Shown piece after piece: positions 5,072 to 33,203 of a DNA stretch of 34,839 nt. A program made the translations under genes and the position numbers. Below the pieces are notes generated by a model. The model did no database searches, was not told where the DNA came from, and was given only the letters and a program-made list of their open reading frames with translations. How positions within the stretch are numbered: position 1 is the stretch's first letter; every line of letters starts with the position of its first letter. The stretch is taken from NCBI GenBank assembly GCA_022729855.1, contig DZBG01000017.1, positions 1-34,839 on the forward strand, given 5' to 3'. This DNA is from Bdellovibrio sp. Its GTDB lineage: Bacteria; Bdellovibrionota; Bacteriovoracia; Bacteriovoracales; Bacteriovoracaceae.

Positions 5072-5614
5072 ATGAAAATTTGTATATTTTGTGGATCAGC
5101 TTCAGGAGTGAATCCTAAGCATATAACAGCTTCTCAAGATTTGATGAAAATCTTTGCCGCCAAAAAAATTGATTTGGTTTATGGAGGAGCAGCGATTGGA
5201 GTCATGGGTGAGCTTGCAAATAATCTGATGAGTCTTGGTGGAAATGTTTATGGGGTTATCCCCCAGCGTTTGATGAAAAAAGAAGTGGCCCACGCCGGAC
5301 TGACTAAGATTCATGTAGTGAGTGATATGCATGAAAGAAAAAAAATGATGTACGATATCTCGGACGGTTTTTTGATTTATCCTGGCGGCCTTGGCACAAT
5401 GGATGAATTGTTTGAGATTATGACGTGGAGACAACTTGGGTATCACAGTAAACCAATCGCTTTGTATAATAGTGATGGATACTATGATCCACTTATCCAG
5501 TTTATTGATCATGCAGTAAAAGAAGGATTTGTAAGTCCTGCTCATAGAGAACTTCTTTTTGTGAGTGACTCATTGACAGAAGTGATGAACTATTTTGAAG
5601 AAAAGACTAAATAA
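5072..5614 (+). CDS. LOG-family nucleoside 5'-monophosphate phosphoribohydrolase
   Basis: This is a Rossmann-fold hydrolase of the TIGR00730/LOG family. Members release the base from nucleoside monophosphates, classically cytokinin ribotides and in bacteria often AMP. The diagnostic PGGLGTMDE motif is at residues 104-112 and the HERKKMM segment, with the conserved Arg-Lys, at 88-93. The N-terminus KICIFCGSASG and YGGAAIGVMG (37-46) form the nucleotide-binding loops. The length of 180 aa is typical. It starts one base after the YciB-like gene and its stop overlaps the acetyltransferase start (TAATG). The physiological substrate is not evident. Confidence 0.9.
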   Translation: MKICIFCGSASGVNPKHITASQDLMKIFAAKKIDLVYGGAAIGVMGELANNLMSLGGNVYGVIPQRLMKKEVAHAGLTKIHVVSDMHERKKMMYDISDGFLIYPGGLGTMDELFEIMTWRQLGYHSKPIALYNSDGYYDPLIQFIDHAVKEGFVSPAHRELLFVSDSLTEVMNYFEEKTK

Positions 5615-13142: not shown

Positions 13143-13223
13143 TTCACCCAGCTCGTGTTTCATTAAAGAACTTCTTATCCCTATATTTAAGTCTTAATAG
13201 AAGAATCATTACATAAAGATTAT

Positions 13224-13250
13224 TTTCTCCTGCCATTGATACAGGAGAAA
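13224..13250 (+). promoter_or_regulatory. Hairpin covering the ribosome binding site of the Rha-like gene
   Basis: TTTCTCCTG (13224-13232), a nine-base loop, then CAGGAGAAA (13242-13250): a perfect 9-bp stem whose 3' arm is the Shine-Dalgarno AGGAGA. The ATG follows at 13253. Such a structure would hide the ribosome binding site unless melted or bound. Confidence 0.65.
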
Positions 13251-13252
13251 GT

Positions 13253-13720
13253 ATGACTGATGATTTTAGAATTGAACTTCCATTTGAAACGAGACCACCT
13301 CGCCTAAAAGATCTTATTAATAATCATATTATGGGCGATGTTTGGGTAAGGGATACTCCATTTGGTCCAGTCACAGATTCACTAAGAATTGCTGAGAAAT
13401 TTGAAATGGATCATAAGCATGTTTTGCGAGCGATTAAGAAATGTATAGATGAGCTTTCTATTGAGCCCAAATTTGGGCTCAATAGAAACATTATAGAAAA
13501 CAGATACTTAGGAGGGGCTAAAGGTAAAGAACGCCAAAATCCCAAATACGATATTACTGAGTTTGGTCTGGCACTCTTACTACTTTATATCAACACACCT
13601 AAGGCCAGATTAATTTCCGCAGAAATCCTTTACCGTTTCTTTGTCCTTAAAACTTATTTGTCTGATATGAGTGAAAATCAAATAGGCGCGATTAAGGGAC
13701 ATTATCGAAAGAAGATCTAG
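13253..13720 (+). CDS. Rha-family-like regulator
   Basis: The product of 155 aa follows the phage Rha (pRha) domain pattern: GPVTDSLRIAEKFEMDHKHVLRAIKK (residues about 41-66, an AE-F-xxxHKxVLRxI DNA-binding-like helix pair), a variable segment, NPKYDITEFGLALLLL (about 98-113) for the family's PxYxLTRdGFxLL, then a helical end. Rha proteins are phage-encoded regulators that affect prophage growth. No integrase, repressor or structural phage gene lies nearby, so this is a domesticated copy or a solitary remnant. Two odd features occur: a hairpin that masks the ribosome binding site, and a perfect 34-bp palindrome inside codons 68-79. The stop interlocks with the convergent TonB-like gene. Confidence 0.75.
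   Translation: MTDDFRIELPFETRPPRLKDLINNHIMGDVWVRDTPFGPVTDSLRIAEKFEMDHKHVLRAIKKCIDELSIEPKFGLNRNIIENRYLGGAKGKERQNPKYDITEFGLALLLLYINTPKARLISAEILYRFFVLKTYLSDMSENQIGAIKGHYRKKI
13455..13488. repeat. Perfect 34-bp palindrome inside the Rha-like gene
   Basis: TTTCTATTGAGCCCAAA (13455-13471) is followed with no spacer by its exact reverse complement (13472-13488). The flanking bases (C at both 13454 and 13489) do not extend it. It encodes SIEPKFGLNR in frame, within the segment between the two conserved Rha blocks. It may form a cruciform in DNA or a long hairpin in mRNA, or serve as a dimer-binding operator. Confidence 0.95.
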
Positions 13721-33167: not shown

Positions 33168-33203
33168 AAAAAAAAAGGGCCAGCTTAGCTGGCCCTTTTT
33201 TTT
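33168..33203. terminator. Bidirectional terminator between lon and the convergent gene
   Basis: GGGCCAGCT and AGCTGGCCC (33177-33195, one central base) are flanked by a run of A on the left and a run of T on the right. It thus works as an intrinsic terminator on both strands, ending lon from the left and the gene at 33206-34348 from the right. Confidence 0.95.

Follow-up and report, generated by a model that had tools for sequence, protein, structure and literature searches.

A perfect 34-bp palindrome within a rha-like gene of Bdellovibrio sp. as the predicted binding site of the protein encoded around it

The window analysed here, a 34,839-nt stretch of Bdellovibrio sp. DNA, represents one contig of a 2.8-Mb genome, the closest relatives of which are Bacteriovorax/Bacteriovoracaceae MAGs. 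An ORF found at 13253–13720 (+) encodes a predicted winged-helix DNA-binding protein of 155 aa, which has relatives in the class, belongs to the Phage_pRha family (Pfam PF09669; E-value, 1.7 × 10⁻¹⁵; 57.8 bits, cut-off 29.9) and matches PHROG 518, "Rha-like transcriptional regulator" (5.5 × 10⁻¹²); its score for NCBIfam TIGR02681 (39.7 bits) lies under the cut-off of that model (45.95). Pfam, PHROGs and NCBIfam gave no sign of a nuclease or recombinase domain in this protein. A phage or prophage setting, which is typical of Phage_pRha without strictly defining it, was not observed: IMG/VR contains no relatives of the protein, phage records share only 31% identity with it, and the neighboring genes are chromosomal.

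No PDB relatives of the rha-like protein were detected by sequence, and the Foldseek fold search returned no significant match (best E-value, 0.2). The AlphaFold2 model, which is of moderate confidence (pLDDT, 71.5), has helices at residues 43–49 and 54–68 and wing strands at residues 80–87 and 94–102; residues 54–56 open the second helix, and residue 89 is found in the loop of the two-stranded wing. The codons of the predicted recognition helix (residues 54–68; local pLDDT, ~90) occupy positions 13412–13456 (+), with H54 encoded at 13412–13414, K55 at 13415–13417 and H56 at 13418–13420, and those of the predicted wing occupy positions 13490–13558 (+), with A89 at 13517–13519. K55, H56 and residue 89 covary with the site described below.

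A perfect palindrome of 34 bp is located at 13455–13488, and its 17-nt arms, TTTCTATTGAGCCCAAA and TTTGGGCTCAATAGAAA, are 100% complementary with a spacer of 0. The original prediction had reported mismatch-free, spacer-free 17-base arms at this position and a chance expectation of about 2 per million windows; the arm-complementarity check reproduced the coordinates and arms exactly, and the estimate agrees with 34,839 × 4⁻¹⁷, or about 2 × 10⁻⁶. With a score of 10 compared with 17, the runner-up among gapless palindromes in the window is far weaker, and none scoring at least 11 is present in 107 kb of the syntenic chromosomal region from relatives. Thus, the palindrome is real, and chance is excluded as its origin. 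It lies in frame between the two conserved Rha blocks, as originally noted, and encodes residues ~68–79, the linker predicted to join the recognition helix and the wing. The conserved 24-bp core, ATTGAGCCCAAA followed by TTTGGGCTCAAT (13460–13483), is the proposed dimer binding site. An inverted repeat elsewhere in the window (33169–33203), with 17-bp arms flanked by runs of A and T, is of the bidirectional terminator type.

According to a protein search of the class, 49 of 129 genomes contain rha relatives, frequently in several copies per genome and with decayed fragments beside the intact ones. In total, 34 rha loci were drawn from the public genome collection, and 39 intact members were assembled. 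In 35 of them, a palindrome with 12-bp arms, perfect or slightly short of it, is centered exactly 20 codons past the start of the H-x-[H/N/Y] motif of the predicted recognition helix. This constant, indel-free placement contradicts the inserted palindromic element suggested earlier; a palindromic repeat of the RPE/REP type was rejected on the same grounds, the site being, in addition, essentially confined to rha genes. The palindrome is not a generic Rha feature either, since no internal palindromes were found in the one phage Rha gene and the 14 more distant Rha-like relatives tested.

The sequence of the palindrome varies among the members (e.g., ATTGAGCCCAAA, ATTCAGCTCAAA, ACAGAGTCCAAA, ATTCAATCCAAA and ACAGAACTCAAA, each followed by its complement), and compensatory changes occur in both arms, purely synonymous codon positions included. 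The number of paired positions per 12 is 11.2, compared with 7.2 (maximum 7.9 in 2000 draws) when the amino acids of each member were kept fixed and synonymous codons were sampled according to the pooled family usage. Counted from the center, bp 7 is formed by the third base of a Glu/Gln codon and the first base of a Leu codon in nearly all members, and is G:C in 23, A:T in 12 and T:A in one; since both arm positions are synonymous in nearly all cases, the DNA covaries here without a change in the protein. In the central AAATTT, the two-fold symmetry is exact, and the codons used are AAA TTT rather than AAG TTC; bp 1 and bp 3 are each kept in 35/36, where 24 and 26, respectively, were expected. 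A mispair at bp 6 was found in one member. Orthologues encoding the same residues without the palindrome, along with a protein that does not bind it, had been named as refuting evidence; what was found in the orthologues is the opposite, the palindrome being kept as the residues change.

Three residues encoded outside the palindrome track the identity of three base pairs. At position 56, His accompanies C:G at bp 5 in 19 members and Asn accompanies T:A in 15 (34/34; Fisher's test, 5 × 10⁻¹⁰, with kinship ignored). Lys, Arg or Gln at position 55 occurs with G:C at bp 7 in 23 members, and Phe, His, Asn, Ser or Tyr with A:T in 12, with exceptions in 0 of 35, a grouping picked after inspection of the data. 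In the wing, Ala or Gln at position 89 is found with T:A at bp 11, and Pro with C:G (33/34). With concordance at this level, the site matches the specificity of the protein across homologues. An unbiased scan, in which every protein column outside the palindrome was compared with every base pair, ranked residue 56 first for bp 5 (normalised mutual information, 0.88, compared with 0.24 for the runner-up), residue 55 first for bp 6 and bp 7, and residue 89 first for bp 10 and bp 11. The observed preferences of the helix agree with textbook recognition, in which Asn is paired with A, and Arg, His and Lys with G.

On a tree built without the covarying columns, the inner branches of which have low support, residues and bases changed in step 9 times (residue 56 and bp 5), 7 times (residue 55 and bp 7) and 7–8 times (residue 89 and bp 11). 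All 9 changes of residue 56 coincide with the 9 changes of bp 5, giving 9 independent pairs when all branches are counted; well-supported branches alone leave 3 (bp 5), 2 (bp 7) and 2 (bp 11) pairs, which are concordant or nearly so and too few for a sign test. Two copies from one genome (L012 and L065), 94% identical outside the covarying columns, combine HKH with CCC..GGG and HKN with CTC..GAG, respectively. The sole member with Tyr56 (L031, genome G016) has unlike half-sites, CCC on one side and GAG on the other.

The four intact members that lack the internal site are all N56, and each carries a similar, in part imperfect, palindrome with a T:A core upstream of the gene: at −37 (L036) and −159 (L076), both with perfect 14-bp arms, at −130 and −241 (L035), and, in a weak form, at −135 (L038). 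Since a T:A core is what N56 predicts, these exceptions support the residue–base rule. No upstream palindromes of this type were seen in the members with an internal site. A frameshifted member (L085) has a T:A-core palindrome immediately before its ribosome binding site, and in a genome from another family of the phylum (G179) residue 56 is Arg and the upstream palindrome has G at +5.

In the leader of the rha-like gene, the ribosome binding site is paired within a hairpin, TTTCTCCTG...CAGGAGAAA (13225–13252, +). This hairpin had been counted as a second self-complementary element of the gene, and as such is moderately supported in one clade, yet it is a feature separate from the palindrome. 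In 15 relatives, 84% of the cells are paired vs. 51–68% in slid controls, with modest covariation; the hairpin is partly conserved in freshwater relatives and not evident in marine ones. In the window (13158–13172) and in 14 relatives, the left edge of the conserved leader carries a conserved dyad, TTCA-N4-TGAAC, ~95 bp ahead of the ATG. Although similar to the N-type half-site, this dyad does not vary with residue 56.

A pattern search for the perfect 14-bp core, GCCCAAATTTGGGC, revealed a single occurrence in the genome, inside the rha-like gene, and a regulon of further perfect genomic sites was thus rejected. Matches to a generalised 24-bp pattern in the 129 genomes fall in rha genes or their remnants, with the exception of three AT-rich matches, which look like chance, and one orphan; a reversed control pattern gave 6 matches. 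The orphan site, ATCCAGCTCAAATTTGAGCTGAAT (L156, ~2195–2220), belongs to a genome (G119) with no detectable rha gene. At another locus (L052, ~5480–5514), a second perfect 34-bp palindrome, TTTCTACGCGGCTCAAATTTGAGCCGCGTAGAAA, directly follows the rha stop codon and has a core of the N type, in contrast to the H type of the gene; it may be a terminator or the remnant of a site.

Comparison with relatives shows that the gene was inserted alone. In about two dozen relatives, an anti-sigma-like gene and the gene downstream of it are adjacent and convergent, with no rha between them; in the window, rha and a 110-bp leader lie between them, the insertion extending over 13143–13716 (+) with a right edge defined to within ~25 bp. 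Similarly, a conserved convergent pair that adjoins in ~25 relatives is separated in one genome by 597 bp that include rha (L047, 4890–5480). Among 99 neighbor proteins from 25 loci, common flanks were found only for L051 and L060, besides two weak or rha-derived matches, and no transposase or recombinase was found within the ~0.6-kb unit. Since units of ~0.6 kb split convergent pairs that abut in relatives in two cases, and nearly every copy is differently flanked, the rha-like gene is, as judged from these comparisons, a solitary mobile gene of ~0.6 kb inserted where convergent genes meet. Four loci (L073, L084, L087 and L064) have rha copies of differing specificity in tandem or in clusters, with decayed fragments alongside. 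In the seven examined genomes with two intact internal-site copies, the sites differ in all seven pairs, which is not significant given the 21% sharing expected for random pairs; mutual avoidance of specificities by co-resident copies was therefore not accepted.

Very likely, as far as can be judged from sequence, the rha-like protein binds the palindrome within its own gene: across dozens of relatives, changes in the one are matched by changes in the other, the site covaries at synonymous positions, and it is relocated upstream where the internal copy is missing. Of the original proposal of an operator for autoregulation by the Rha-like protein, the predicted cognate site is thereby upheld, and autorepression appears to be the likeliest use of the site, a role held with somewhat better than even confidence. 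A Rha-family winged-helix protein would bind the 24-bp two-fold symmetric core as a dimer; in either half of it, bp 5–7 from the center would be read by K55 and H56 at the beginning of the recognition helix, and bp 10–11 by A89 in the wing. The site occupies the linker codons between helix and wing, a part of the protein tolerant of change, so that the operator and the specificity residues travel together. Once bound, the dimer would then stop RNA polymerase partway through the gene or, in the clade with upstream sites, at the promoter, resulting in negative autoregulation of a solitary mobile gene that has no other evident target in its own genome. Specificity switching would probably serve to avoid cross-talk among copies. 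This account as a whole, including own-site binding by a dimer, negative autoregulation and a solitary mobile gene, is considered likely. More tentatively, the gene may be a minimal one-gene selfish element, in which the only target of a Rha-type protein lies inside its own gene and is used either for spread or to keep out copies that share its specificity; specificity groups would then switch by paired changes, one or two helix residues together with the matching bases.

An operator 220 bp inside the gene would be unusual for autorepression, and this arrangement would suit an initiator and its origin as well. The main rival explanation, thought unlikely, is that the site of the cognate pair serves for initiation or mobilisation, with an initiator-like protein acting on it in cis, as lambda O at oriLambda or RepC at oriV. 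The spread of a single gene without a transposase would also be explained in this way; its insertion at two loci, the tandem and decayed copies, and a fast switching of specificity resembling plasmid incompatibility or phage replication specificity favor this reading, and differing sites in the seven two-copy genomes would fit too, although not significantly against random pairs. As in initiators of the intragenic-origin type (PMC4488673, PMC2783167), the site lies within its own gene in 35 of 39 members. However, it is a lone palindrome that has no iteron array and is accompanied by no obvious AT-rich unwinding element; among the genes next to it in the window, none was recognised as belonging to a replicon or encoding a recombinase; and in one clade the site precedes the gene, in the manner of an operator. 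The nuclease or recombinase target considered in the original prediction finds no counterpart in the domain content of the protein, and an intragenic nuclease target would be self-destructive.

Covarying arms are a classic sign of RNA structure, and a leader hairpin exists as well, so a conserved mRNA hairpin, bound by protein or acting on translation or mRNA decay, was also considered. This reading, which was among the original options, is highly improbable: it leaves unexplained why AAATTT, which would be the RNA loop, keeps two-fold symmetry and codon choice at bp 1 and bp 3, why particular bases go with particular residues in the wing and at the beginning of the recognition helix, and why sites also occur 130–240 bp upstream of the ATG. 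Only slightly less improbable is a role in immunity, with the protein aimed at phage or mobile-element DNA bearing the same site and using the copy within its gene for autoregulation. Quick turnover of specificity does resemble an arms race, and Rha proteins are phage regulators, but IMG/VR holds no relatives of the protein, and 56 viral stretches contain three core variants and no full family-type site. Quasipalindrome correction, a form of template switching, can make compensatory changes and perfect arms, and compensatory changes are indeed observed; as a neutral by-product without function, however, the palindrome would not be expected to survive, since long palindromes tend to be lost, to show the residue–base correspondence, or to have upstream counterparts of the fitting class in genes without an internal one, and this explanation is the least credible.

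Autorepressors with palindromic operators, such as those of the TetR and antitoxin types, and the ParB–parS system have dimer-type palindromes and specificity-setting helix residues that coevolve with the site. The predicted system resembles them in both respects and differs in that its operator lies inside the coding sequence, beside the codons of the specificity residues. By sequence, the protein belongs with Phage_pRha, Rha of phage phi80 and PHROG 518, from which it differs in its stand-alone chromosomal gene (155 aa), its absence from IMG/VR and a predicted internal cognate palindrome. The closest precedents are lambda O, a DNA-binding protein with specific sites in its own coding sequence, oriLambda being located inside gene O (PMC4488673), and the initiator RepC of repABC plasmids, which binds oriV within its own coding sequence (PMC2783167); a search of the literature on intragenic operators yielded repABC only. 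Both share with the rha-like gene a specific site inside the coding sequence of the protein. In contrast to the four 19-bp iterons, AT-rich element and partner P of lambda, a single palindrome and a solitary chromosomal gene of an unrelated sequence family are found here, and unlike RepC, which is part of a plasmid replication–partition operon, this protein is of the Rha family and has no replicon.

In the rha-like genes, a protein of the transcription-factor type and its site appear to have switched specificity together several times, leaving a natural record of the process. Since both partners are found in one gene, the rules of recognition can be read directly: at bp 5, His or Arg goes with G and Asn with A, bp 7 goes with residue 55, and bp 10–11 go with the wing. 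A function is thereby predicted for the poorly understood phage-related family Rha, and the results point to a solitary mobile gene of 0.6 kb in predatory Bacteriovorax-type bacteria.
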